Assembly: GCA_031268615.1 (NCBI GenBank)
Contig: JAIRWZ010000157.1
Coordinates: 1-10,664, forward strand
DNA length: 10,664 nucleotides
Direction: 5' to 3'
Source of the DNA: Actinomycetes bacterium
GTDB taxonomy: Bacteria; Actinomycetota; Coriobacteriia; WRKU01; WQUG01
A program made the position numbers and the translations under genes. Shown here piece by piece: positions 119-10,664 of the stretch; within the stretch, counting starts at the first letter, position 1; every line of letters starts with the position of its first letter. The notes beneath the pieces are model-generated. The model worked only from the letters and a program-made list of their open reading frames with translations. It was not told the DNA's origin and did not search any database.

Positions 119-1123
119 ATGAAATCTGCCGTCAAAGGGCATATCGCCGCCGCAGCCGTCATGATAATCTGGGGCTTGACCTTCGTCTCGTCCGACTTAG
201 TGCTGGTCGCGGGCGTGAACACCGTAGAGCTTCTGTTGGTCCGTTTCGGCCTGGGCTGGTTGCTGCTACTGGTCCTGCGCCCGAAAATCCCCGCGTTCCG
301 CTCCATCCGCGCCGAGGCCCCGTTCGCGCTCTGCGGACTGTTCGGCGTCGTCCTCTACTACGCGGGCGAATACACGGCGCTGCGCCTGACGCTGGTCTCG
401 ACGGTTGGCATACTGGTCGCCACCGCGCCGCTGTTTACCGCCTTCCTGTCCTGGGCCGTGTACAAAAAGAAGCCGACCAAGCTCTTCCTCGCCGGTTTTG
501 TCCTGGCGCTTGCCGGTATCGTGTTGGTTGGCGTTTCCGGTTCTGCCGGTGGAGGAGAAGTGAGTACGTCCACTCCAGCGATACGCTTATTAGGAGACCT
601 GCTCGCACTTCTGGCAGCTTTTACCTGGGCCGTCTATAGCGTCGTATACCTAAAGATTGGTAATCCGAACCCAGACTCACCCTCAAATCCGAACCCGAAC
701 CCGAACCCAGACTCACCCTCAGACCCAAACCCGAATCCGGACAACTCCGTTAAAGCACACGCCGCGTCAGGCGACCCCGTGCTGGCGACCCGCCGTATCT
801 TTTTCTATGGCGTAATCATGCTGCTTGCGGGTCTCCCTTTTCTGGGCATTCATCCGAATTGGGCGCTCTATGCTCGCCCGGTGGTGTGGGGCAACCTGCT
901 TTTTCTGGCGTGTATCGCAACGGCGCTCGGGTATGTCGCCTGGAATTACGCCATTAACCAGCTGGGTGAATTGCGCAGCAGCGCCTACTTGTACGGTATC
1001 CCTGTGGTGACGCTCCTCGGTTCGGTTGTCGTACTGCACGAACCGTTTACCTGGCCCGCTGCTGTCGGCATTATCCTCATCACCATAGGCCTCATTCTAT
1101 CCGAACGCAGCCACCGAACATAG
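119..1123 (+). CDS. EamA/DMT-superfamily transporter with Asn-Pro-rich central loop
   Basis: This is a 334-residue polytopic membrane protein of the drug/metabolite transporter type, with two EamA halves (about residues 8-140 and 157-327). Each half contains about five hydrophobic segments. Typical family features are the early WGLTFV segment and the C-terminal part with GYVAWNYAI (271-279), SSAYLYGIPVVTLL (287-300), LHEP (306-309) and the closing hydrophobic helix before LSERSHRT. The family exports amino acids, metabolites or drugs; the substrate cannot be read from sequence. The loop around residues 181-208 is unusual: it is built of NP/NPD/DSPS repeats that ordinary EamA proteins (about 290-310 residues) lack, and it accounts for the extra length. 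Residues 147-150 (EVST) are encoded by a copy of the dispersed 16-bp motif. The ATG at 119 has no Shine-Dalgarno sequence but has a -10-like box immediately upstream, suggesting a leaderless message. The gene appears to be monocistronic. Confidence 0.9.
   Translation: MKSAVKGHIAAAAVMIIWGLTFVSSDLVLVAGVNTVELLLVRFGLGWLLLLVLRPKIPAFRSIRAEAPFALCGLFGVVLYYAGEYTALRLTLVSTVGILVATAPLFTAFLSWAVYKKKPTKLFLAGFVLALAGIVLVGVSGSAGGGEVSTSTPAIRLLGDLLALLAAFTWAVYSVVYLKIGNPNPDSPSNPNPNPNPDSPSDPNPNPDNSVKAHAASGDPVLATRRIFFYGVIMLLAGLPFLGIHPNWALYARPVVWGNLLFLACIATALGYVAWNYAINQLGELRSSAYLYGIPVVTLLGSVVVLHEPFTWPAAVGIILITIGLILSERSHRT
557..572 (+). repeat. Dispersed 16-bp motif, copy 1 (inside the EamA gene)
   Basis: GAAGTGAGTACGTCCA, a perfect match to the consensus of this window. 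It encodes Glu-Val-Ser-Thr-Ser at residues 147-151, in the loop joining the two EamA halves. It is flanked by GGAG (554-557) and CTCC (573-576), giving a short inverted repeat around it. Confidence 0.8.
662..741 (+). repeat. Intragenic hexamer-based minisatellite
   Basis: Six-base units of the type AACCCG/AATCCG/AACCCA are strung together here. An 18-bp block (AACCCAGACTCACCCTCA) occurs exactly twice, at 668-685 and 704-721, 36 bp apart. All periods are multiples of three, so gain or loss of units would change the length of the NPNPD loop of the transporter without a frameshift. Likely produced by replication slippage or unequal recombination. Confidence 0.9.
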
Positions 1124-1146
1124 CGCGCTCACAAGCGATCCGCCTG

Positions 1147-1524
1147 TTATAGTCTCGCAAGATTACCAGATGCAATAAGTGCAGCGGTAACGGGAGCAAA
1201 GTCGGTCGGTTGCAATCGACCCAATGGTTCGCTACGCAGGATATCTCGTGTATTTAGTATGATTATCTGGTCACACCGCGCCGTTGTTGGAGCGACTAGT
1301 CCCGACTCTTTCCATCTTGAAAGAGGAATATCAAAGGTATCAGGTCGTACGCTTACAGTAGTGAGTTTTACGACAGCGCAAGCTTGTTCACGCACTGCCA
1401 CAAGCAGCACGGGCCGCACTTTGCCAACTTTTGGCTTGTCCTCAAAATGGATATAGGCAAGCCATATATCCCAAACAGAGAGACCTTTATTCATGCTGGG
1501 CATATTCTGCATAAAGTTTGTCAT
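1147..1524 (-). CDS. PemK/MazF-like type II toxin
   Basis: This is a protein of 125 residues with the PemK/MazF fold signature: an early strand VWDIWLAYI (17-25), the loop K-V-G-K-V-R-P-V-L-L-V (32-42) whose Arg-Pro is the family's hallmark, a central strand VVKLTTVS (51-58), then DIPL (65-68), APTTARCDQIIIL (78-90) and the closing helix region PVTAALIA. Members are mRNA-cleaving endoribonucleases held in check by the adjacent antitoxin. I chose the ATG at 1524 because GGAGG (1534-1538 on this strand) sits 9 nt before it. An ATG at 1494 (MNKGLSVWD) would start nearer the conserved domain but lacks a ribosome site, and the longer open frame back to 1632 has no support. The gene overlaps the 3' end of the antitoxin gene by 38 bp, which implies translational coupling. 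The family call is firm; the activity is inferred. Confidence 0.88.
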   Translation of the reverse strand: MTNFMQNMPSMNKGLSVWDIWLAYIHFEDKPKVGKVRPVLLVAVREQACAVVKLTTVSVRPDTFDIPLSRWKESGLVAPTTARCDQIIILNTRDILRSEPLGRLQPTDFAPVTAALIASGNLARL

Positions 1525-1789
1525 ACACAGAATCCTCCGGAGCATCTTCTGCGGCGGAAAGCACTGGATATCCAAAACGTGGGTCTGCACGAACAAAAGC
1601 CGGATTGTCCCAGTTAAATTGACGATTATCAACGGATAAACGAAAAGGGATTTCCCGGCGCAAAGCTACTTGGCGCAAGAAAAGAGTAATCGCAGCGCTT
1701 AAGCTCAGACCTAGACTGTCAATTACGTCCGTTGCGTCAGCTTTAATTTGTTTGTCGATGCGGATGGTAATACTATCTTCACGTGCCAT
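1487..1789 (-). CDS. RelB/DinJ-like antitoxin
   Basis: This is a 100-residue protein. Its N-terminal part, SITIRIDKQIKADATDVIDS followed by LGLSLSAAITLFLRQ, is the ribbon-helix-helix DNA-binding domain typical of RelB/DinJ antitoxins (roughly residues 6-50), with the customary IPFRLS stretch after it. The acidic C-terminal tail (AEDAPEDSVYDKLYAEY) would be the toxin-binding segment. The ATG at 1789 is preceded by AAAGGAGGT on the same strand, an almost perfect ribosome site. The open frame extends upstream to 1945, but that part lies across the operator-like repeats and is not protein-like. Antitoxins of this type usually repress their own operon; the tandem 9-bp repeat upstream fits that. 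Pairing of a RelB/DinJ-type antitoxin with a PemK/MazF-type toxin is a mixed but known kind of combination. Confidence 0.9.
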   Translation of the reverse strand: MAREDSITIRIDKQIKADATDVIDSLGLSLSAAITLFLRQVALRREIPFRLSVDNRQFNWDNPAFVRADPRFGYPVLSAAEDAPEDSVYDKLYAEYAQHE

Positions 1790-1827
1790 CAACCAACCTC
1801 CTTTGTGTTTGGACTCAATGCAATCAC

Positions 1828-1870
1828 ATTGTACTGATTTTGTCAATAAAATGTATAACATGTATAACAT
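1828..1870 (-). promoter_or_regulatory. Antitoxin-toxin promoter and tandem operator-like repeat
   Basis: On the plus strand TGTATAACA is repeated head-to-tail at 1852-1860 and 1861-1869 (period-9 identity from 1851 to 1870). Read on the minus strand, TACAAT (1833-1828) resembles a -10 box. TATACA (1857-1852), 18 bp upstream of it and inside the repeat, is a 4-of-6 match to a -35 box. A consensus TTGACA also occurs at 1846-1841 but lacks a good -10 at standard spacing. Repeated sites overlapping the promoter would suit autorepression by a ribbon-helix-helix antitoxin. The repeats are seen; the function is inferred. Confidence 0.4.
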
Positions 1871-1932
1871 CCCGGCACGACGGCAAACATGACTGATGCG
1901 GTGAAATTGCAAGTACACTTCAATTGCAGGTC

Positions 1933-1948
1933 TGGACGCGCTCACTTC
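1933..1948 (-). repeat. Dispersed 16-bp motif, copy 2
   Basis: Minus-strand GAAGTGAGCGCGTCCA differs from the consensus at two positions (TA replaced by CG). It lies between the toxin-antitoxin operon and tyrS, about 60 bp before the tyrS start. Confidence 0.6.
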
Positions 1949-2010
1949 GCATGCGTTATTCTAAAAGGGATATATGCACGGTACTCAATCTGTAGGAAAG
2001 GGTTGATTTT

Positions 2011-3228
2011 TTGACCGTTGACGAACAACTGGATATTTTGCAATCTGGCACGGCTGACATTGTGCCGCTGGCTGACTTGAAGACAAAACTACAGCGAGGC
2101 GTGCCGCTGCGCGTGAAGCTGGGGGTTGACCCGACAGCGCCCGACCTGCATTTGGGCCACGCTGTGCCGCTGCGCAAGCTGCGCCAATTCCAGGATTGCG
2201 GCCACACCGTAACGCTCATCATTGGCGATTTTACCGCGCTCATCGGCGACCCTTCCGGTCGCAATACCACCCGTCCGCCCCTGACGCCCCAGCAGGTTAA
2301 CGACAACGCCCAGACCTACGTCACCCAGGCCTTTCGCATTCTTGACCCCGACCGCACGCAGCTGCGCCGCAACTCTGAATGGCTGGGCTCTCTGGACTTC
2401 AGGCAGGTTCTGCAGCTGACGGCACAGTTCACGGTGGCGCGCATTCTGGAGCGTGACGACTTTCAGCAACGCTATCGCGACCAAAAACCCATCTCTCTGC
2501 ATGAATTCCTCTACCCCGTCGCGCAGGCCTACGACTCGGTCGCGATACAGGCCGATGTCGAGCTGGGCGGCACCGATCAGCTGTTCAACCTGTTGGCCGG
2601 TCGGGAACTGATGGAAAAAAGCGGTCTGGAGCCGCAGGTCTGTCTCACCCTGCCCTTGCTGGAAGGTATTGACGGCGTGCGCAAAATGTCGAAATCCTAC
2701 GGCAACTACGTCGGGCTGACCGATGAGGCGGCCGATATGTTCGGCAAAGTCATGTCAATCCCTGACACGCTGATGCCCGCTTGGTTCACGCTGGCTTCAG
2801 GTCTGCCCCTGCCAGATATCCGCACCATACGGGCAGGTCTGACCGATGGCACGGCTGACCCGAACGCGACCAAGCGGCGTCTGGCACGCGCCATCGTCGC
2901 GCTCTATCACGGCGAAGCCGCCGCTCTGGAAGCCGAAGCCGCCTTCGACCGCGTCTTCAAACGACACGAAGTCCCCGACGACATTCCCTCCTTCCAATTA
3001 TCTGAAGTGAGTACGCCCAATCCTGAAGGACTCGTGTATGTGCCAGCGGTTATGGTGGCGGTCGGTCTGTCTGCTTCTGCCGGCGAAGCACGACGTCTGA
3101 TTGACGGTGGCGGAGTCAAAGTTGACGGCTCTGCTCTGCCCGCGAAGACCTATCAGCTGGAGACTTCGCTTGTGGAAAACTCTGTCATTCAGGTCGGCAA
3201 GCGTAAATTCGCGCGTCTCGTCGCGTAA
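2011..3228 (+). CDS. tyrS: Tyrosyl-tRNA synthetase, KMSKS (TyrZ-like) type
   Basis: A complete 405-residue class Ic aminoacyl-tRNA synthetase that charges tRNA-Tyr in the cytoplasm. The Rossmann-fold catalytic domain contains VDPTAPDLHLGHAVPLRK (39-56, HIGH motif as HLGH 47-50), IGDFTALIGDPSGR (71-84), LYPVAQAYDS (167-176), ELGGTDQLFNLLAGREL (184-200) and KMSKS (225-229). KMSKS rather than KFGKS marks the TyrZ-like subgroup. The anticodon-binding region follows, and an S4 RNA-binding domain ends the protein (about 343-400). The start is TTG at 2011, preceded by AGGAAAGGG (1994-2002) at 8 nt; no in-frame ATG offers a better alternative. No T-box leader is visible in the short upstream region. 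Oddity: the linker before the S4 domain (residues 332-336) is encoded by a copy of the dispersed 16-bp motif. The gene stands alone. Confidence 0.97.
   Translation: MTVDEQLDILQSGTADIVPLADLKTKLQRGVPLRVKLGVDPTAPDLHLGHAVPLRKLRQFQDCGHTVTLIIGDFTALIGDPSGRNTTRPPLTPQQVNDNAQTYVTQAFRILDPDRTQLRRNSEWLGSLDFRQVLQLTAQFTVARILERDDFQQRYRDQKPISLHEFLYPVAQAYDSVAIQADVELGGTDQLFNLLAGRELMEKSGLEPQVCLTLPLLEGIDGVRKMSKSYGNYVGLTDEAADMFGKVMSIPDTLMPAWFTLASGLPLPDIRTIRAGLTDGTADPNATKRRLARAIVALYHGEAAALEAEAAFDRVFKRHEVPDDIPSFQLSEVSTPNPEGLVYVPAVMVAVGLSASAGEARRLIDGGGVKVDGSALPAKTYQLETSLVENSVIQVGKRKFARLVA
3004..3019 (+). repeat. Dispersed 16-bp motif, copy 3 (inside tyrS)
   Basis: GAAGTGAGTACGCCCA, one mismatch to the consensus. It encodes Glu-Val-Ser-Thr-Pro at residues 332-336, in the linker between the anticodon-binding region and the S4 domain. 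The reading frame is the same as in the EamA gene copy. Confidence 0.8.
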
Positions 3229-3401
3229 TTTCCTAAAGAACAATCGCTGACGGGACCGACGTTGTCTCTGCATAGCGCTGTGTTTAAGAATTACTTAAGA
3301 TACTCGTTAGATTGGTATCAGGAAAAGTATAGAACGCGTTAAGGTCTGCTTCTCCAGAATTGCGAAAGTCCTGTTGATTCCGCAAAAAGAGGGGAGTAGT
3401 A

Positions 3402-4838
3402 ATGAACAGAAAGACTTTGGTAGGAATTGCGGTAGTGCTGGGTGGGGTTGTTCTGTCGTGGGCGCTCCCGGTATTTTCGGCATGTGCGGCAAGCTATGGT
3501 GATATTCGCTATACCCTTGAGGACGCGAAAGGAGCGGTGGGCGCCGGTGTGTACATTACTTCCTATAAGGGTAAAGCCACCGCGCTGACTATTCCGAAAG
3601 TTATTCTGGGCGAGCCAGTAGTTAGCGTGAAACTGACGGGGCTGAAAAAGAAACTCAAAAATCTTACGGTCACGTCAACAGGATCTCTGCGGGCTCTTGA
3701 CGTTCATGGCAACGCGCTGACAACGCTGAATTTGGGGTCTAACGCACAACTGCGCAGCGTGAACTGCGACAAGAATAAACTGAAAGTATTGACCTTAGGT
3801 TCAAAACCGCAGCTAAGTCAGCTCAGTTGCGAAAAGAATGTGTTAACCGCGCTGGATACCAGTGGCTGTCCGCGTCTGAATGTGTTGCATGTCAGTTCTA
3901 ATAAACTCATTCGACTTCCCCTGGGTAGCAACACCCAACTAACCGAGCTGTTGTGTCCTAAAAACCAGCTGCCCATTCTGAACGTGTCGCCACTTGTCAA
4001 GTTGCAGACTTTGGATTGCTCTGTCAATAAGTTGAAGATTTTGGCAATAGCGAACAATCCTGCATTGACTACGTTGAACTGTTCGGATAACAAGCTGACG
4101 GCGTTGGTATTACTATACAATACGCGGCTGAAGACCTTGCGCTGTGCAAAAAATAAGCTGACGGTGCTGCCGCTCGTGACCAATACGGCGCTTACTTATC
4201 TGGATTGTTCGCACAATAAAATAACGGTACTGCCCTTGACAACACAGAGCCGACTGGAACACCTGGCTTGTACCAGCAATAAACTGAGCGTTCTGAACTT
4301 TGCGAACAACCTGCGTCTGAAGTATTTGAGTTGTGGCAGCAACAAACTGACGGCGCTCAATGTCAGTATCTTGAAGCAGCTGGACTATCTGGCGGTTTCG
4401 GGCAATAAGCTGCTTGTTCTCAATATTTCTTCCAATCCGGCCTTGACCTATCTGTCCTGTGCCAGCAATAAACTGGTCGTTCTGGATTTGAGAGCCAATC
4501 CAAAGTTAAAAACCTTGTACTGTGGCAACAATAAGCTGATTGACCTGATTCTCAAGAGGCAAAGTGAGATAAAGGAACTGCATGCCGAAAAGAATTTACT
4601 GGGCTTACTGCCGACAAACTGTACGCCAAAACTGGAAATCCTGCAGTGCAATAACAACCTGTTGAAAAATCTGGCCCTAGGACCCAACGGTCGGGTCAAA
4701 AAGGTTCTCTGCGAGAAAAACCTCTTCACGATTTTGGACGTAACAAAACATCCCGCTTTGCGCACGCTGCGCGTCAGCAAAGGTGTGAGAGTGGATAAAG
4801 ATAAAGGCGCCAATATCGCCATCAGCTATGTGAAATAA
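3402..4838 (+). CDS. Secreted leucine-rich-repeat protein with cysteine ladder (InlJ-like repeats)
   Basis: A 478-residue protein that begins with a Sec signal peptide: Lys near the N-terminus, a hydrophobic core at about 6-24 and a likely cut after the Ala-Cys-Ala segment near 27-29. A short domain (30-94) rich in beta-forming residues follows. From residue 95 comes an unbroken array of 21-residue leucine-rich repeats of the form (x)LxxLxCxxNxLxxLxLxxNx. The repeats start at 95, 116, 137 and so on to 452: 17 full units plus a last partial one, with no length deviation. The sixth core position is Cys in 13 of 18 units (122, 143, 185, 206, 227, 248, 269, 290, 311, 353, 374, 416, 437). This is the 'cysteine ladder' described for Listeria internalin J. 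There is no LPXTG anchor, C-terminal helix or extra domain, so the protein is probably released or bound by partners. A role in adhesion or protein-protein contact is inferred from the family only. GAGGGGAG (3389-3396) is the ribosome site, 5 nt before the ATG. The gene is monocistronic and convergent with the next gene. Confidence 0.92.
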   Translation: MNRKTLVGIAVVLGGVVLSWALPVFSACAASYGDIRYTLEDAKGAVGAGVYITSYKGKATALTIPKVILGEPVVSVKLTGLKKKLKNLTVTSTGSLRALDVHGNALTTLNLGSNAQLRSVNCDKNKLKVLTLGSKPQLSQLSCEKNVLTALDTSGCPRLNVLHVSSNKLIRLPLGSNTQLTELLCPKNQLPILNVSPLVKLQTLDCSVNKLKILAIANNPALTTLNCSDNKLTALVLLYNTRLKTLRCAKNKLTVLPLVTNTALTYLDCSHNKITVLPLTTQSRLEHLACTSNKLSVLNFANNLRLKYLSCGSNKLTALNVSILKQLDYLAVSGNKLLVLNISSNPALTYLSCASNKLVVLDLRANPKLKTLYCGNNKLIDLILKRQSEIKELHAEKNLLGLLPTNCTPKLEILQCNNNLLKNLALGPNGRVKKVLCEKNLFTILDVTKHPALRTLRVSKGVRVDKDKGANIAISYVK

Positions 4839-4895
4839 ACAAACTGATTGCTGCCGCTTCGCCATCAAGCAATTCCCGAAAATGTCGAGGGGCGT

Positions 4896-4954
4896 GCCGC
4901 TACGTTGCCCGCCCCCCGCACTACACGCTACCGCACTACACGCCGCTACGTTGC
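4896..4954. repeat. Short direct-repeat cluster at the LysR gene 3' end
   Basis: GCCGCTACGTTGC occurs at 4896-4908 and again at 4942-4954. Between them a 15-bp unit containing GCACTACACGC is duplicated in tandem (4916-4930 and 4931-4945). The repeats run across the minus-strand stop codon (4936-4938) of the LysR gene, so its last codons may have been altered by the duplication. The stretch lies in the convergent gap after the LRR gene; no clear terminator was found there. Confidence 0.75.
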
Positions 4955-5829
4955 GTGCAGAAGGCGTCAATGAGGGCGCGAATCGCATCGCTTTGCTCGA
5001 AATCGCGCCGATGGACCAGCGCCAGGTCCGCCATAATCTGCTCTTTCAGCGGTACGCAGACCACCAAATCCTTGTAGTAAGCATCGGCCTGGACCAGCTT
5101 TTTGGGCAGAGCTGAAATTCCGATACCCTTACTGACCGAGGACAGTAACAGTTCGTGGCGCTTGTGATACAGGCGGACATTGGGCATAATCCTTTGTCGG
5201 GCGCAGGCAGCCAGAAATGTCTGTGACAAGGTGGATTCCTGATGAATCAGGACAAATCGCTCGTCAGCAATTTCTGACAGAGATACTTCGGTGCATCCAG
5301 CCAGAGGATGGCTCTTATTGACGATGATATGCAGATAATCGGTAATCAGCATAAACCATTCATAAATGTCAGCGTTCAGCAACGAGGGCCGCATTATCGC
5401 AAGGTCCAGCTGGTACAGGCGTAGTTTTTGCTCCAGTTCACTTTGGTTACGTTCGCACAGGTCTACCTGAATATTGGGGTTCGTAGCATGAAAATCACCT
5501 AACAGGGCGACAAAATTATGTTCAGCCAGCAGGGGTAGGGTCCCCAGGCGCACATGAGCTTTGCGGCTGTCGGCATACGCCGCCAGTCTTGTCAGAGTTT
5601 GCTCCCGATTACGAATGGCTTTTTGAGCAAAAATCTGGAAGGCGGTGCCCGCGGGTGTCAGCCGCACACCATTGGGATTGCGAAAAAACAGGCTGACGCC
5701 CAGCTCTCGTTCCAGCGCGCTAATTTGTTTGGAAACCCATGACGGGGAAACCAAAATCAGTTCAGAAGCATCGGCAAAATTGCGACATTCAGCCGCCGCG
5801 CAGAAGTATGTGAGCTGGTCAAAGTTCAT
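4936..5829 (-). CDS. LysR-family transcriptional regulator (divergent from the decarboxylase gene)
   Basis: A 297-residue regulator of normal family length. Residues 1-60 form the winged helix-turn-helix: MNFDQLTYFCAAAE, NFADASELILVSPSWVSKQI (recognition region), LERELGVSLFFR and LTPAG. A linker helix and a periplasmic-binding-protein-like effector domain (about 90-297) follow, including VRLGTLPLL, LAIMRP, HPLAG and GIGISALP. Such proteins bind T-N11-A sites and activate a divergent gene when an aromatic or organic acid binds. The position back-to-back with the UbiD-family gene, with three such sites in between, makes it the likely regulator of that gene. The ATG at 5829 has a -10-like TATACT 6 nt upstream and only a GGAG at 2 nt, so translation may be leaderless. 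It is related to the second LysR protein of the window. The inducer is unknown, plausibly the decarboxylase substrate. Confidence 0.93.
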   Translation of the reverse strand: MNFDQLTYFCAAAECRNFADASELILVSPSWVSKQISALERELGVSLFFRNPNGVRLTPAGTAFQIFAQKAIRNREQTLTRLAAYADSRKAHVRLGTLPLLAEHNFVALLGDFHATNPNIQVDLCERNQSELEQKLRLYQLDLAIMRPSLLNADIYEWFMLITDYLHIIVNKSHPLAGCTEVSLSEIADERFVLIHQESTLSQTFLAACARQRIMPNVRLYHKRHELLLSSVSKGIGISALPKKLVQADAYYKDLVVCVPLKEQIMADLALVHRRDFEQSDAIRALIDAFCTQRSGV

Positions 5830-5841
5830 AACTCCAGTATA
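5830..5841 (-). promoter_or_regulatory. Possible -10 box for leaderless transcription of the first LysR gene
   Basis: On the minus strand TATACT (5841-5836) is followed by GGAGTT and the ATG at 5829. A -10 box here would place the transcript start at the initiation codon. A -35 box at 17-18 bp upstream is poor. GGAG within the 6-nt gap is too close to be a usual ribosome site. Confidence 0.3.
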
Positions 5842-5862
5842 GCGGAGAAGACTGGCGGGGAA

Positions 5863-5878
5863 TGGACGTACTCACTTC
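5863..5878 (-). repeat. Dispersed 16-bp motif, copy 4
   Basis: Minus-strand GAAGTGAGTACGTCCA, identical to copy 1. It lies in the divergent region between the first LysR gene and the decarboxylase gene, 34 bp upstream of the LysR start and adjacent to the operator array. Confidence 0.8.
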
Positions 5879-5885
5879 GGCTCCT

Positions 5886-5957
5886 TGCAAATTTGGCATG
5901 ATATTTTTCCAAATTGGAAAAGCACAAGCACCCTCCTTCCGTACTGACAAATTGGAA
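5886..5957. promoter_or_regulatory. LysR-type operator array between the LysR and ubiD-like genes
   Basis: Three T-N11-A sites share the core CAAATTTGG/CAAATTGG: TGCAAATTTGGCA (5886-5898), TTCCAAATTGGAA (5907-5919) and TGACAAATTGGAA (5945-5957). The middle one sits inside a perfect 17-bp palindrome with one central base (5905-5921). The spacing between the first two centres is 21 bp, two helical turns; the third lies 38 bp further on, nearer the decarboxylase gene. This matches the recognition-site/activation-site layout known for LysR regulators. Which of the two LysR proteins binds is an inference from position. Confidence 0.65.
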
Positions 5958-5982
5958 AACTAAACTGCCAAAACACCGCTTG

Positions 5983-6000
5983 CGCCCCTGAACTGGGGCG
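5983..6000 (+). other. Small GC-rich hairpin upstream of the decarboxylase gene
   Basis: CGCCCC (5983-5988) and GGGGCG (5995-6000) form a perfect 6-bp stem with a 6-nt loop, about 85 nt before the start codon. No U-run follows, so it is not a standard terminator. It could be an mRNA leader structure or chance. Confidence 0.3.
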
Positions 6001-6083
6001 GTGAAGATAAAGTTGCGACCCCATATCGCAAAGGTCTCACCGAACGAAAAGGAAGTAGTGAAAGCTTTACGAAAGGAGATAAG

Positions 6084-7562
6084 ATGGCTAACAATAAGTA
6101 TGACCTGCGTCACATCATCGAGCTGCTCAAAAAATATCCGGGGCAGCTGATTGAAACCGACACCGAGGTCGATCCGCATGCCGAGCTGGCGGGGGTCTAT
6201 CGCTACATCGGCGCCTGGGGCACGGTCGAGCGGCCGACCAAGGTGGGTCCCGCGATGATTTTTAACAAGGTAAAGGGGCATCCCGACGCGCGCGTAATCA
6301 TTGGTCTGCTGGCCAGCCGCGAACGCGTTGGCATTATGCTGGACACCGAGCCGAAAAAACTGGGCTTTCTGCTGAAAGAGGCCGTGGCGAACCCCATTGA
6401 CCCGGTAACCATTCCGCAGGCAGAAGCAGTCTGCCAGGAGGTTGTGCATACCGCCGACGAGCCGGGCTTTGACATTCGCAAGCTGATTCCGGCGCCGACG
6501 AACACCTCCGAGGACGCCGGCCCCTATATCACGATGGGCATGTGTTATGCGACTGACCCGGAAAACGGCGAGACCGACGTGACCATTCACCGGCTGTGCC
6601 TGCAATCGGCTGACGAGATTTCGATGTACTTTGTGCCGGGAGGCCGTCACCTGACCGTCTTTCGCGAGAAAGCAGAAAAGGCCGGCAAACCGCTGCCGAT
6701 TTCCATCAGTATCGGTGTTGACCCCGCCATCGAAATCGCGGCTTGCTTCGAGCCGCCGACCACGCCGCTGGGTTATGACGAGTTGAGCGTCGCTGGCGCT
6801 ATCCGGGGCATACCGGTCGAGCTGGCCGACTGCGTTTCAGTCAAGGAAAAGGCCATCGCGAACGCGGAATACGTGGTGGAAGGCGAACTGCTGCCCGACG
6901 TGCGCATCCGCGAAGACATCAACACCGACACCGGCAAAGCCATGCCCGAATTTCCAGGCTACACCGGTCGCGCCAACCCCGAACTGCCCGTCATCAAGGT
7001 CAAAGCGGTCACGCACCGCAAGAATCCTATTATGCAGACGGTTATCGGACCTTCCGAGGAACATGTCTCGATGGCAGGCATTCCGACCGAGGCCAGCATT
7101 CTGTCTATGGTTGACCGTGCCATGCCGGGCAAACTGCTGAACGTCTATTGCCACAGCGCGGGCGGCGGCAAATACATGGCTATCCTGCAGTTTAAGAAAG
7201 GCATTCCGTCCGACCAGGGGCGCGAACGTCAGGCGGCGCTGCTGGCTTTCAGCGCGTTCAGCGAGCTGAAACACGTCGTTCTGGTCGATGAAGACGTCGA
7301 TCCCTTCGACAGCAGCGATGTTTTGTGGGCGCTGAATACGCGCTTCCAGGGCGACATCGACACCATCTTCATCCCAGGCGTGCGCTGTCATCCCCTCGAC
7401 CCGTCGCAGCGCGTCGAATACAACAATAACCTGCGCGATTTCGGGATTTCCTGCAAGACGATATTCGACTGCACCGTGCCCTTCGCGCTGAAGGACAACT
7501 TCAAACGGGCGCAGTTCCAAAAGCTGGATCCGACGAAATGGGTGCCGGACTATAAGGCCTAG
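6084..7562 (+). CDS. UbiD-family prenyl-FMN-dependent phenolic acid decarboxylase
   Basis: A 492-residue UbiD-superfamily enzyme that removes CO2 from an aromatic acid using prenylated FMN made by a UbiX partner. It has the complete family layout: N-terminal domain, prFMN-binding middle domain with DVTIHR (165-170) and GGRH (186-189), then SIGVDPAIEIAA (209-220), the acidic loop ending in MPEFPGYTG (287-295) and C-terminal VDEDVDPFD (401-409) and CKTIFDCT (457-464). By spacing, D165, H189 and E233 would be the metal ligands, R170 the catalytic Arg and E289 the catalytic Glu; these assignments are my alignment from memory of fungal Fdc1. Conserved passages (REDINTDTG, AMPEFPGYTG, GIPTEASI, RCHPLDPSQ) recall gallate (LpdC), protocatechuate, vanillate and 4-hydroxybenzoate decarboxylases rather than cinnamate or polyprenyl-benzoate enzymes, but the exact substrate cannot be told. 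AAAGGAG (6072-6078) sits 5 nt before the ATG. The gene is divergent from a LysR gene and probably under its control. Confidence 0.93.
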   Translation: MANNKYDLRHIIELLKKYPGQLIETDTEVDPHAELAGVYRYIGAWGTVERPTKVGPAMIFNKVKGHPDARVIIGLLASRERVGIMLDTEPKKLGFLLKEAVANPIDPVTIPQAEAVCQEVVHTADEPGFDIRKLIPAPTNTSEDAGPYITMGMCYATDPENGETDVTIHRLCLQSADEISMYFVPGGRHLTVFREKAEKAGKPLPISISIGVDPAIEIAACFEPPTTPLGYDELSVAGAIRGIPVELADCVSVKEKAIANAEYVVEGELLPDVRIREDINTDTGKAMPEFPGYTGRANPELPVIKVKAVTHRKNPIMQTVIGPSEEHVSMAGIPTEASILSMVDRAMPGKLLNVYCHSAGGGKYMAILQFKKGIPSDQGRERQAALLAFSAFSELKHVVLVDEDVDPFDSSDVLWALNTRFQGDIDTIFIPGVRCHPLDPSQRVEYNNNLRDFGISCKTIFDCTVPFALKDNFKRAQFQKLDPTKWVPDYKA

Positions 7563-7582
7563 CCGTCGGATAGGGCAGAGAA

Positions 7583-7598
7583 GGAGTGAGTACGTCCA
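7583..7598 (+). repeat. Dispersed 16-bp motif, copy 5
   Basis: GGAGTGAGTACGTCCA, with the 14-base core perfect and one mismatch in the two outer bases. It starts 20 bp after the decarboxylase stop codon and is flanked by GGAG and CTCC, as for copy 1, giving a weak inverted repeat. Confidence 0.8.
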
Positions 7599-7657
7599 TC
7601 CTCCGAACCGGTCATGAACGTGGAGGGGGATAAGGGGGGCACCTTCCGGGGTGTGAG

Positions 7658-7849
7658 TGTAGGGACACCTTCCGACCCGCAAGGGTCGGTTGGTGTCCGC
7701 TCATATTCCATGCCGGACACACCCGAACGGACAAGGTGTAGGGCGGGCATTGGGCGGGCATTGTATGCCCGCCGCCTCCGTCAGCAACCGAACGGACAGC
7801 TGGCGGACAGCAATCCGCCCGCTCACGCGTACGGAGAGCTGTCCCTACA
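7658..7849. repeat. Nested-palindrome element (MITE-like or REP-like) between ubiD-like and second LysR genes
   Basis: The ends are an inverted 10-mer: TGTAGGGACA (7658-7667) and TGTCCCTACA (7840-7849). Inside are (a) a long hairpin, 7663-7678 with 7683-7698, 7-bp and 7-bp stems separated by a TT/TT mismatch and closed by a GCAA tetraloop; (b) GGGCGGGCATT duplicated in tandem (7741-7751, 7752-7762), the second copy pairing with TGCCCGCC (7766-7773); (c) GGACAGCT (7794-7801) pairing with AGCTGTCC (7837-7844) around GGCGGA/TCCGCC (7802-7807, 7814-7819); (d) CCGAACGGACA twice (7723-7733, 7788-7798). No transposase and no clear target-site duplication is seen. The right end contains the LysR gene's stop codon. 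No U-run follows the hairpins, though they may still end or protect transcripts. This fills the 282-bp intergenic stretch. Confidence 0.75.
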
Positions 7850-8750
7850 GGGTGTTATCGGTGTAATCTAAAATATGGGGTGTGAGGAAATCAAGTAACA
7901 GCGTCTCATTGGCGTTCAAGCTACGGTTGCGCAGGGACACCAGGCCAATCTCGGAATAGACGGGCGTTGGCAGTTCGGCCGCAACGACCGTATCGTCGGC
8001 ATGACCGAGCATACCGGCGGGTATCAACGCGATGCCGATGCCTTTTCTGACAGCGCAGAGTACCAGGTCGTGGCGCGAATAAGAGGCGACTACGTTAGGC
8101 TCAAATCCGCTGTGCTGTGCCATTTGCAGAAAGCTGTCATACAGGTTAGAATCCGGGTCAAAGGTCACCCAGCGTTCTCCTTGCAGCTGCGACAGCGCTA
8201 CCGGTTTGCCGCCTGCCAGGGGATGGGTACTGCGCAAAGCGACGACCAGACGGTCCTGTATCAGTGGCTTCCAACTGTATTTGAGTGGAGAGAGGTTGTT
8301 GGTGCGCATGATGGCGAAACTGACCTGTCCAAAGTCCAATCGTCGTGTCAGATTGGCTTGCTCGCGTTCATACACCTCCAGCTTGATACCCGTATGGGCG
8401 GTCTGGAAATCAGTGAGAGCCGACGCCAAACCATAGCAGCCCACCAGGGGCAAACTGCCGACGCGCAGCGTCGAGTAGCGCTTTGACCCATATTGCTGCA
8501 TGAGGCGTATCGCTGCTTTTTGGTCATCAAACAGCTCGGTGGCGAAATCATAGAATACCTCACCGGCTGGCGTCAGTGACACGTCGCGTTTTCCGCGATG
8601 GCGCTCAAAGAGGGTGGCGTTCAGCTCGCCTTCCAGCTTGTGAATTTGTTTCGACAAGGACGACACCGAAGCATGCTCACTTTCGGCCGCCGCCGTCAGC
8701 GTTCCCATTCGCGCCACGGCAAGGAAATACTCTATCTGACTCATGTTCAC
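7845..8750 (-). CDS. LysR-family transcriptional regulator (divergent from the permease gene)
   Basis: A 301-residue regulator with the standard N-terminal winged helix-turn-helix (IEYFLAVARMGTLTAAAE, SVSSLSKQIHKLEGELNATLFER, LTPAGE; residues 5-65) and an effector-binding domain (about 94-301) containing LRVGSLPLV, FAIMRT, HPLAGG and RKGIGIALIP. Its effector domain shares many positions with that of the other LysR protein (GSLPL/GTLPL, FAIMR/LAIMR, SRHDLVL/KRHELLL, KGIGI), so the two look like paralogues. I kept the GTG at 8750 because AAGGGAG on the minus strand (8763-8757) is 6 nt away and the resulting MNMSQIEYF aligns with MNFDQLTYF of the other protein; the ATG at 8744 is the alternative. 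The stop codon lies in the end of the palindromic element. It is divergent from the DASS-like permease gene and probably controls it, perhaps with the phenolic acid or its product as signal. Confidence 0.93.
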   Translation of the reverse strand: MNMSQIEYFLAVARMGTLTAAAESEHASVSSLSKQIHKLEGELNATLFERHRGKRDVSLTPAGEVFYDFATELFDDQKAAIRLMQQYGSKRYSTLRVGSLPLVGCYGLASALTDFQTAHTGIKLEVYEREQANLTRRLDFGQVSFAIMRTNNLSPLKYSWKPLIQDRLVVALRSTHPLAGGKPVALSQLQGERWVTFDPDSNLYDSFLQMAQHSGFEPNVVASYSRHDLVLCAVRKGIGIALIPAGMLGHADDTVVAAELPTPVYSEIGLVSLRNRSLNANETLLLDFLTPHILDYTDNTL

Positions 8751-8787
8751 CGCATGCTCCCTTGTCGGCTATCAGTGTAGCATGCGG
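8750..8787. promoter_or_regulatory. Inverted repeat at the start of the second LysR gene
   Basis: CCGCATGC (8750-8757) and GCATGCGG (8780-8787) are a perfect 8-bp inverted repeat with a 22-bp spacer. They enclose the ribosome site, start just at the GTG codon, and bracket TACACT (minus strand, 8779-8774 region), a possible -10. It could be an autoregulatory operator or an mRNA hairpin masking the ribosome site. Function is inferred. Confidence 0.45.
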
Positions 8788-8959
8788 GATTACTTCCAAA
8801 CCCGGTCTCTATTTGCGTATTTTGGCACGTTAATTGTCTGAACTGGAATAGCTGCAGGAAACCAGAGCCCCTTTCCATTTCGGACTAATTACCCCCCGAA
8901 TTCATCATTGCTCCCGCGCGCTTGAGTGAACAAAATGGGAGTTAAGAAAGAAAAGGCGA

Positions 8960-8990
8960 GGCTTAACGCGTCTGTGGGGTCGCGTAAGCC
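8960..8990 (+). other. Leader hairpin before the permease gene
   Basis: GGCTTAACGCG (8960-8970) pairs with CGCGTAAGCC (8981-8990), ten pairs with one bulged A and a 10-nt loop. It ends 27 nt before the permease ATG and 12 nt before its ribosome site. No U-run follows. It may be a stabilising 5' leader structure or a regulator-binding inverted repeat. Confidence 0.5.
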
Positions 8991-9017
8991 ACTACAAACG
9001 TCGGAGGGAGCAAAAAT

Positions 9018-10508
9018 ATGGCGGAAGAGAAAAAGAAATTAATAACGAAGCGTGAAATAGGACTGGTGGTCGGCATTTTGGTCGGCATTATCGTCTATCT
9101 CATTCCCATCAGCGCCGAGGCCTTAAGCAAAGGCGGTCACATCACCTTGGCTCTGACGCTGATGACGGTGGTATGGTGGGCCTTCCAAATCGCGCAGCCC
9201 GCCTATGTGTCGGGCGTATTTCTTGCGCTTTTGGTTATTTTCGGGGTGGTACCACTGGACCCGGCAACTTTGGCGCCCGATGCGGTCGTGCCAGCCGGAG
9301 TCGGACTGATTACCGCCAACGCCACCGAAACGGCAAAAATTGTGTTTCGTTCCTGGACTACCCAAAATCTTTGGCTCATCATCGGCGCCTACTTAATTGC
9401 GGCGGCGGTGGAAAGCTCTGGCTTGGGCAAGAGAATCGCCTACAGCTACATGTTGCGTTTTGTGAAAGACTACAAGTCCATCATCGTCGGCATCTTCGTG
9501 TTGACGCTGATTTTGAGCCTGCTGATTCCGCACCCTTGGCCACGCGCTCTGATGATTATGTCGGTTATGCACGTCATTATCAAAGCGTCTGACGTGTCCA
9601 AAGAGGACGCGGTAAAAATCGGCTTCACCGTGTTTGCCGCGTCCGTTCCGGTCAGCCTGATTTTCCTGACCGGTGACGCGACCATCAACATTTTGGCCGC
9701 TGACTATGCCGGAGGCCTTAGCTTCGTGCAGTGGTTTCTGAACATGGGTGTCCCGGCGCTAGTCGCCTCCATCCTGGCGATGGTTCTGATTTTCGTGTTG
9801 TTCAAACCGAAAAAGGAAGTCGTCATCAACAAAGAGGACGTCCGCGCAAACCTGGCCTCGCTGGGCAACATGTCCAGCAAAGAAATCAAAACCTTGGCGT
9901 GGATTATCATCGCCATCGCGCTGTGGATGACCGACAGCTTGCACGGCATCAGCACAGGCTGGGTCGCGCTGATTGTCGGCGTGTTGCTGGCCTTCCCGAT
10001 TGTTGGCGGTATCCTGACCCCGAAGGACTGGGGTACCGTTCCGGTTCAGACGCTGGTATTTTTGACGGCGGCTATGGCCATCGGCAGCGTCGGCGGCGCC
10101 ACCGGCATGAACGACTGGATTGCCACCACGTTCTTTGGCGGTATTTCCAGCTCGGCCCTGGCCAACCCCTTTGTACTCGCGTTCATCGTGACCGTTATCG
10201 CGATGATTCTGCACATGTTACTTGGCAGCGTCATCGCTGTCATGGGGGTTGCGGTCCCGGCTATTCTGGCCATGACCGGTCCGCTGGGTATCAGCCCAAT
10301 CGTCCCGACTCTGATTGCGTACATGGCCATCAGTTCGCACTACATCTTCCCCTTCCAGCACCTCAACATGTTGGTTGGTTCCGCTGAAGAAACCGGCGGC
10401 TACACTCAAAAAGAGACCATCAAGATGGGTATTCCGCTCATTGCGGTGGTATTCATTGTGACGGTTGTCGTCATGGTTCCCTGGTTCAAGATTACGGGGG
10501 CTCTGTAA
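9018..10508 (+). CDS. DASS/SLC13-like permease, probable aromatic acid transporter
   Basis: A 496-residue membrane protein with about 12 or more hydrophobic segments. Family-like features are WTTQNLWLIIGAYLIAAAVESSGLGKRIA (112-140 region), the first re-entrant-type loop FLTGDATINILA (216-227), and the second-half counterpart LMILH-like segment MILHMLLGSVIAVMGVAVPAI (396-416) with SSHYIFPFQHLNMLVG (439-454). The usual SNT sodium-dicarboxylate motifs of the divalent-anion symporter family are not present in recognisable form, so the substrate is probably not an ordinary dicarboxylate. Neighbouring UbiD- and UbiX-like genes point to import of a phenolic acid such as gallate, or exchange with the decarboxylated product; a comparable permease gene accompanies gallate decarboxylase in Lactobacillus plantarum (from memory). 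GGAGGGAG (9003-9010) is 7 nt before the ATG. The next gene follows after 66 bp containing a long hairpin, so the two are probably one operon. Confidence 0.82.
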   Translation: MAEEKKKLITKREIGLVVGILVGIIVYLIPISAEALSKGGHITLALTLMTVVWWAFQIAQPAYVSGVFLALLVIFGVVPLDPATLAPDAVVPAGVGLITANATETAKIVFRSWTTQNLWLIIGAYLIAAAVESSGLGKRIAYSYMLRFVKDYKSIIVGIFVLTLILSLLIPHPWPRALMIMSVMHVIIKASDVSKEDAVKIGFTVFAASVPVSLIFLTGDATINILAADYAGGLSFVQWFLNMGVPALVASILAMVLIFVLFKPKKEVVINKEDVRANLASLGNMSSKEIKTLAWIIIAIALWMTDSLHGISTGWVALIVGVLLAFPIVGGILTPKDWGTVPVQTLVFLTAAMAIGSVGGATGMNDWIATTFFGGISSSALANPFVLAFIVTVIAMILHMLLGSVIAVMGVAVPAILAMTGPLGISPIVPTLIAYMAISSHYIFPFQHLNMLVGSAEETGGYTQKETIKMGIPLIAVVFIVTVVVMVPWFKITGAL

Positions 10509-10517
10509 ATTCAAGCA

Positions 10518-10553
10518 ATTGAGTGAGTGCGTCCATGGGCGCACTCGCTCAAT
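10518..10553. repeat. Head-to-head pair of the dispersed motif forming a hairpin (copies 6 and 7)
   Basis: Plus-strand 10520-10535 (core AGTGAGTGCGTCCA, one mismatch) and minus-strand 10551-10536 (core AGCGAGTGCGCCCA, three mismatches) meet at a central CCATGG. The RNA can form a stem of 14 pairs (10518-10531 with 10540-10553, one G-U), extendable by two more pairs to a 4-nt CAUG loop. It starts 10 nt after the permease stop. What follows (TCTTGTGAAGG) has no U-run, so full termination is doubtful; partial termination or 3'-end protection of the permease message is possible. Confidence 0.8.
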
Positions 10554-10574
10554 CTTGTGAAGGAGCGCAGCAAC

Positions 10575-10664
10575 ATGAAACGTATCATTGTGGGAATTTC
10601 AGGCGCCAGCGGCGTTCAGCTGGGGTATGCCGGGTTAAAAGCTCTGTCTGCTCTGGACGGTGTC
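10575..10664 (+). CDS. UbiX-like flavin prenyltransferase, N-terminal part (cut by window end)
   Basis: Only the first 30 codons are in the window. They read MKRIIVGISGASGVQLGYAG and onward; VGISGASG is the hallmark FMN-phosphate-binding start of UbiX/Pad1-type flavin prenyltransferases, which join a dimethylallyl group to FMN to make the prenyl-FMN cofactor needed by UbiD enzymes. In the family the stretch is usually GISGASGV followed by a small set of variable residues. GAAGGAG (10559-10565) lies 9 nt before the ATG. Its place downstream of the permease and near the UbiD-family gene supports a role in activating that decarboxylase. Completeness and any following genes cannot be judged. Confidence 0.88.
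   Translation, partial: MKRIIVGISGASGVQLGYAGLKALSALDGV

Follow-up and report, generated by a model that had tools for sequence, protein, structure and literature searches.

A dispersed DNA motif with dialects in a family of Coriobacteriia, a probable uptake sequence

The window analyzed here, the whole 10,664-nt contig JAIRWZ010000157.1 of assembly GCA_031268615.1 (genome G000 below), carries seven copies of a 14-bp motif, which are scattered over both strands in and around genes for an EamA-family transporter, a tyrosyl-tRNA synthetase, a LysR-family regulator, a UbiD-family protein, and a Na_sulph_symp transporter (Table 1). A sequence-only reading of the window had listed these copies, three of them as exact and the others as near-exact, and all seven were recovered where and on the strand it had placed them, the four inexact ones having 1, 1, 2, and 3 mismatches. 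Its opinion that chance would hardly produce such a set is borne out as well, with 0.56 matches expected at up to three mismatches and none of 200 shuffles reaching seven. The last two copies form an inverted pair, described there as a hairpin after a gene; folding of positions 10505-10560 indeed yields -29 kcal/mol (z -7.0) on a 16-bp stem, and no clear T-run follows downstream. Comparison of the window with Rfam gave no matches at gathering thresholds. Among the best 80 loci matching the tyrosyl-tRNA synthetase, the top matches in named genomes belong to Coriobacteriia (58-70% identity).

Table 1. Motif copies and hairpins in the window and in the sampled contigs of its genome
Feature	Position	Strand	Context
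Motif copy, exact 14-mer	559-572	+	Inside EamA-family transporter gene 119-1123 (+; Pfam EamA)
Motif copy, 2 mismatches (AGTGAGCGCGTCCA)	1933-1946	-	Between RelB-like gene and tyrS
Motif copy, 1 mismatch	3006-3019	+	Inside tyrosyl-tRNA synthetase gene 2011-3228 (+)
Motif copy, exact	5863-5876	-	Upstream of LysR-family gene 4936-5829 (-)
Motif copy, exact	7585-7598	+	23 bases past UbiD-family gene 6084-7562 (+)
Motif copy, 1 mismatch, left arm of inverted pair	10522-10535	+	After Na_sulph_symp transporter gene 9018-10508 (+)
Motif copy, 3 mismatches, right arm of inverted pair	10536-10549	-	
Hairpin from inverted pair	10518-10553	.	16-bp stem, loop of 4
Hairpin element GAGTAY-TGAGCCTG-CCCCCGGCTT(T)GACCGGGGG-TCCATACCTG	L123:927-985, L128:1620-1690, L139:6985-7050, and others		G000 sample

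The motif is abundant throughout G000, a draft genome of 1,067,089 bases in 157 contigs that is 62% complete. With up to two mismatches the 14-mer occurs 431 times, versus 2 times for the reversed control, and with up to one mismatch 325 times versus 0; the possibility, raised in the sequence-only reading, that the genome holds only a few copies is thereby contradicted. The density amounts to about one copy per 2.5 kb. The strand bias that had been suggested for checking is absent (216 copies forward and 215 reverse), and there is no clear bias with respect to local GC skew, the orientation agreeing and disagreeing with it at 43 and 54 sites in G000, 102 and 88 in the relative G001, and 50 and 72 in the relative G006 (p 0.06), all of these being drafts.

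The shape of the motif was derived from a 231-kb sample comprising the window and 20 of the 156 remaining contigs. This sample contains 82 copies with up to two mismatches, whereas 200 letter-permuted 14-mers averaged 1.12 copies and never exceeded 7, so the count is not that of random words of the same composition. Since 18 of the 20 contigs were chosen from contigs with exact copies, the densities in the sample are biased upwards; the whole-genome counts are not affected. The consensus of the 82 copies is approximately GAAGTGAGTACGTCCATACCtGC, with an A-rich upstream side. Thus, the repeat proposed at 14-16 bp is real, but the conserved motif is longer than that, with G/T and A/G before the core and T, CC, and G after it. 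An iterative search with a position weight matrix, at a false rate below 5% against first-order shuffles, resulted in 97 sites and a matrix of 28.2 bits with about 20 informative positions. Variation in the core consists mainly of transitions (T/C at positions 2, 6, and 10, and A/G at position 7). The single motif is not palindromic, and single copies have no longer flank in common.

Related yet different words surfaced in relatives from the same family by k-mer counts that were blind to the motif. In particular, the matrices read tGG.GGAGTgCGTCCAt in G006 (122 sites in 235 kb, 5 of the 12 sampled contigs being chosen by matches), tGG.gGAGT.tGTCCAg in G001 (190 sites in 220 kb, with 5 of 15 contigs so chosen), and gGCAGAGtgCGTCCA in G004 (37 sites in 220 kb). 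Weak matrices were obtained for G005 (10 sites in 41 kb) and G008 (14 sites in 145 kb), and none for G003. One layout is seen in the matrices of G000, G006, G001, and G004, and weakly in those of G005 and G008. We counted the word GAGNNYGTCCA and its reversed control in 13 whole genomes. The word prevails in G000 (419 versus 15), G001 (512 versus 22), G006 (528 versus 39), G005 (244 versus 56), G004 (160 versus 24), and G003 (71 versus 31), and is at background in G002 (34 versus 47) and G007 (33 versus 71); in G009-G013 the counts are 16-29 versus 15-44. Several of the relatives, which the sequence-only reading had proposed to include in the count, do carry dialects of one layout.

The narrower word GAGTRCGTCCA, counted in 396 genomes of the class, occurs 333 times in G000, 311 in G006, 115 in G001, 64 in G005, 46 in G004, 25 in G008, 10 in G003, and 2 each in G002 and G007. 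Each of the other 387 genomes has at most 14 occurrences, which restricts the word to the family. Hidden dialects were sought with four seeds in G003, G002, G007, and G005, where no threshold was reached; in G008 the seeds gave one weak form (54 sites versus 5.3 expected). An exact 17-base form of the motif had no matches in the viral_contigs collection, which says little because records near G000 are possibly left out there. In a tree of ComEC proteins from 10 genomes, G006, G001, G004, G003, and G008 make up one cluster, and G002 and G007 a pair; long unresolved branches lead to G000 and to the outgroups. The motif-rich G006 is Coriobacteriia bacterium Lab288P1bin96, as it has a 390-base stretch identical to one in WRBW01000005.1, and Lab288 denotes the termite Labiotermes labralis (PMC7024585).

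Repeats of other kinds were also seen in these relatives. The motif-free G007 has AGACAGGGGGACGGTTC-like repeats (L156, L222-L228) and G002 has GCAGCTTTAACAC-like ones (L158, L215-L221). A coding repeat with a period of about 153 bases (GTCCCCATGCCCAGAG... AAGGGAGTG) recurs at least 19 times in the G001 sample (L145, L169, L173-L177).

Within the samples, genes were called by a home-made open reading frame scorer, which places 46 sites in coding regions, 44 in intergenic regions, and 7 at edges in G000; the corresponding numbers are 74, 43, and 5 in G006, 141, 44, and 5 in G001, and 24, 12, and 1 in G004. With the 7, 5, 5, and 1 edge sites dropped, 44 of 90, 43 of 117, 44 of 185, and 12 of 36 sites are intergenic, at coding fractions of 0.873, 0.882, 0.873, and 0.911, respectively. 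This corresponds to an approximately 2-4 fold intergenic enrichment in all four genomes (p from 4e-5 to 9e-17). Intergenic regions of Neisseria have been described as particularly permissive (PMC3630211). Inside genes, sense and antisense sites number 25 and 21 in G000, 37 and 37 in G006, 91 and 50 in G001, and 15 and 9 in G004; known uptake sequences have likewise been reported to be orientation-biased inside genes (PMC2346458). Pairs of sites at most 80 bp apart in the four genomes are convergent in 15 cases, divergent in 3, and codirectional in 2. By the same gene calls, intergenic regions harbor 9 of the 15 convergent pairs, including all 5 of G006 and 2 of the 7 in G001. An inverted pair of G006 folds at -27.7 kcal/mol (z -7.5), and the DNA uptake sequences (DUS) of Neisseriaceae are known to form pairs of this kind (PMC3630211).

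The origin of coding copies was traced by alignment to orthologs, defined as the best tblastn matches among the fetched loci. Coding sites without an ortholog were dropped (29 of 46 in G000, 34 of 74 in G006, and 69 of 141 in G001), leaving 17, 40, and 72 alignable ones. The motif is gap-free against relatives in 9, 32, and 54 of these, respectively, and the proteins are less conserved there than at control positions, with identities of 0.39 versus 0.55 in G000, 0.51 versus 0.64 in G006, and 0.50 versus 0.64 in G001. Since the majority is gap-free and lies at less conserved positions, most alignable coding copies look like substitutions in permissive stretches, a route known for Neisseria (PMC2397512). 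A minority came along with indels, including the tyrosyl-tRNA synthetase copy of the window, where the surrounding stretch is gapped in the alignment to the relative L041.

In G000, a hairpin CCCCCGG-CTT(T)GA-CCGGGGG splits a part of the motif copies between GTAC and GTCC. The sample holds 29 hairpins of this kind, 25 of them intergenic, and the left half of the motif stands upstream of the hairpin in 28 of the 29, versus a control rate of 0.029. The word RAGTGAGT occurs 81 times, leading into the full motif in 57 cases and into the hairpin form in 20 of the remaining 24. The exact hairpin core is present in 33 copies in G000 and in none of 12 other genomes, including the motif-rich G001 and G006. 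At L127 and L139 the hairpin comes after a full motif and is succeeded by a repeated TCCATACCTG, a 10-base direct repeat resembling a short duplication. Judging by these arrangements, a tiny element looks to have entered an already abundant motif in G000. Other short hairpin repeats came up in a loose scan of this genome, GGATTCCCGC...GCGGGAATGACC-like and TTCTC-GGGCTTGACCC-GAGAATCCAG-like (L125:6515-7046, L136:4176, and L124:6734).

The competence genes that the sequence-only reading had suggested seeking do occur in the family. ComEC (PF03772) was found in 18 of 19 genomes, including G000, where its frame begins at a contig edge. The HHH_3 domain is present in 12 of 13 genomes, with strong ComEA-type matches in 11 and a weak one in G005. 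T2SSF was detected in 12 of 13 genomes, and T2SSE, a TadA-type ATPase, in all 13; in G000 the latter adjoins a CbiA-type ATPase frame resembling TadZ. A Tad run in G006 (L150, 7704-16689) contains T2SSE and T2SSF by Pfam, as well as Flp and TadE-like parts recognized by eye; Pfam assigned no family to the two Flp/TadE-like proteins of G006 submitted to it. In the actinobacterium Micrococcus luteus, transformation depends on Flp pili (PMC4322843). Pfam detected the SLBB domain of ComEA in G006 but in neither G002 nor G007 (L252, L253); by eye, the domain is missing from ComEA of G010 (L254) and present in G001, G003, G004, G009, G011, G012, and G013. Its loss was considered as a marker of motif loss and rejected, as several SLBB-bearing genomes are motif-free.

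The above analysis makes it quite probable that the motif serves as a DNA uptake sequence with dialects in a naturally competent lineage of Coriobacteriia. The likeness to uptake sequences of Haemophilus and Neisseria, which the sequence-only reading had noted, fits best with the density, the equal use of strands, the occurrence both within and between genes, the inverted pairs, the dialects, and the competence and pilus genes. A surface receptor, probably of the Tad/Flp pilus or of the ComEA step, would bind the motif in free DNA, and motif-bearing DNA would be taken up preferentially, pass through ComEC, and recombine. Biased import and recombination, the presumed driver, could then spread and keep hundreds of copies wherever genes and intergenic regions tolerate them, and joint drift of receptor and motif would lead to species-specific dialects of the layout GAG..YGTCCA. 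The observations rather favor an independently evolved recognition of self DNA in Actinomycetota, with a dialect tag of about 20 bp, a receptor of the Tad/Flp pilus or ComEA type, and a single family whose members are motif-rich, decayed, or motif-free.

The motif is outside the sequence families of DUS and of the uptake signal sequences (USS). Like the DUS of Neisseriaceae, recognized by the receptor ComP (PMC3630211, PMC2397512), it has hundreds of copies on both strands, dialects on a core, inverted pairs, and, for most alignable coding copies, apparently permissive positions. It differs in phylum and sequence, in that the 5'-CTG-3' core of DUS (PMC3630211) is missing from either strand of the 14-mer, in its greater length with about 20 informative positions, and in the Tad/Flp type of the G006 pilus. 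Similarly, it shares with the USS of Pasteurellaceae (Hin-USS and Apl-USS; PMC12616744) the abundance, the presence on both strands, and the existence of more than one type per family, whereas the 5'-GCGG-3' core (PMC12616744) is missing from either strand of the 14-mer, and the organism and envelope type are different. Flp-pilus transformation in M. luteus offers a parallel in an actinobacterium with ComEA, ComEC, and Tad genes; the main text of that paper does not contain the term 'uptake sequence' (PMC4322843).

Several observations weigh against an uptake function. In the 62% complete G000, neither ComEA (HHH_3) nor T2SSF was found. ComEC and ATPases of the Tad or pilus type occur in the motif-free genomes G002, G007, and G009-G013 as well, so the machinery is a necessary background and not a proof. 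The receptor was not identified in a survey of ComEA domains only, ComP not being searched for. About 29 sampled copies in G000 are interrupted by the hairpin, hence mobile elements interact with the motif. Finally, alignment gaps affect the motif more often than control positions (8 of 17 alignable sites versus a rate of 0.135 in G000, p 0.0009; 8 of 40 versus 0.070 in G006, p 0.006; 18 of 72 versus 0.064 in G001, p 5e-7), and therefore some copies came with insertions or deletions.

The last two observations would suit a mobile short repeat, such as a repetitive extragenic palindrome (REP) or a miniature inverted-repeat transposable element, spread by a transposase and leaving the 14-mer as its remnant or target, the hairpin being flanked by motif halves (29 cases in the sample and 33 exact cores genome-wide). 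We consider this origin improbable: single copies lack a longer common flank, most alignable coding copies are gap-free, and the hairpin core is confined to G000 among the genomes compared, which include G001 and G006. The motif resembles the elements of REP-associated tyrosine transposases (RAYT) in being short, dispersed, and partly contained in hairpins, but it is non-palindromic as a single unit and about half or more of its sites are in genes. The RAYT domain Y1_Tnp was absent from G000-G006, of which G000 is incomplete, and present in 2 of 13 genomes (G007 and G009), G008 and other transposase families not being searched. The suggestion of REP-type repeats made in the sequence-only reading is therefore not upheld. 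An abundant chromosomal protein, for example, a nucleoid organizer, a condensin loader, or a global regulator, whose binding site diverges together with the protein, is an unlikely but more serious candidate. Hundreds of well-spaced sites in genes and intergenic regions and co-varying dialects fit it too, and the number of sites varies less from contig to contig than a Poisson distribution predicts in G001 (lower-tail p 0.005), with the effect less clear in G000 (0.07) and G006 (0.16). It is opposed by the over-representation of convergent over divergent inverted pairs (15 versus 3) and, to our knowledge, a site of 20-28 bits that exists in hundreds of copies and drifts inside a single family would be unusual for chromosomal proteins.

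Abundant dispersed short words are typical of Chi-like signals and of FtsK-orienting polar sequences, and the motif is such a word; nevertheless, a polar chromosome signal for segregation or repair is very improbable in view of the equal strands, the lack of a clear link between orientation and local GC skew in these drafts, and the common inverted pairs. It is hardly conceivable that the motif serves solely as a transcription terminator or RNA element. The inverted pairs do fold strongly (the pairs of the window and of G006 described above) and intergenic regions are enriched, but sites are mostly single, roughly half or more of them lie in genes (46 of 97 in G000, 74 of 122 in G006, and 141 of 190 in G001), and a single site folds no better than shuffles (z 0.78).

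Neisseriaceae and Pasteurellaceae were called the only families with known uptake sequences in a 2025 paper (PMC12616744), and searches of open-licence articles in PMC listed none with an uptake sequence in Coriobacteriia described in its title or abstract. If the motif is indeed an uptake sequence, it would be the first such system outside these two families and the third in all, unrelated to the others and from a different phylum. Found under a different type of envelope and probably tied to a different class of pilus, it would imply that sequence-tagged sex evolves repeatedly. The question of molecular drive versus selection for conspecific DNA would become testable, because motif-rich and motif-poor members share the family and even the genus label, as do G006 and G003 with 528 and 71 occurrences of GAGNNYGTCCA. 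In practice, the tag added to donor DNA could help to transform such bacteria.

Other features of the window are of separate interest. On the reverse strand, positions 1147-1789 contain a PemK/MazF-like toxin frame and a RelB-like antitoxin frame, likely a toxin-antitoxin pair. The region 6084-10664 encodes a UbiD-family decarboxylase, two LysR regulators, and the Na_sulph_symp transporter, and a frame resembling UbiX by eye starts at 10575; this region is perhaps an aromatic-acid decarboxylation module. Finally, a loop of the EamA transporter has a tandem Asn-Pro-rich insert (NPNPDSPS) encoded at positions 660-750.

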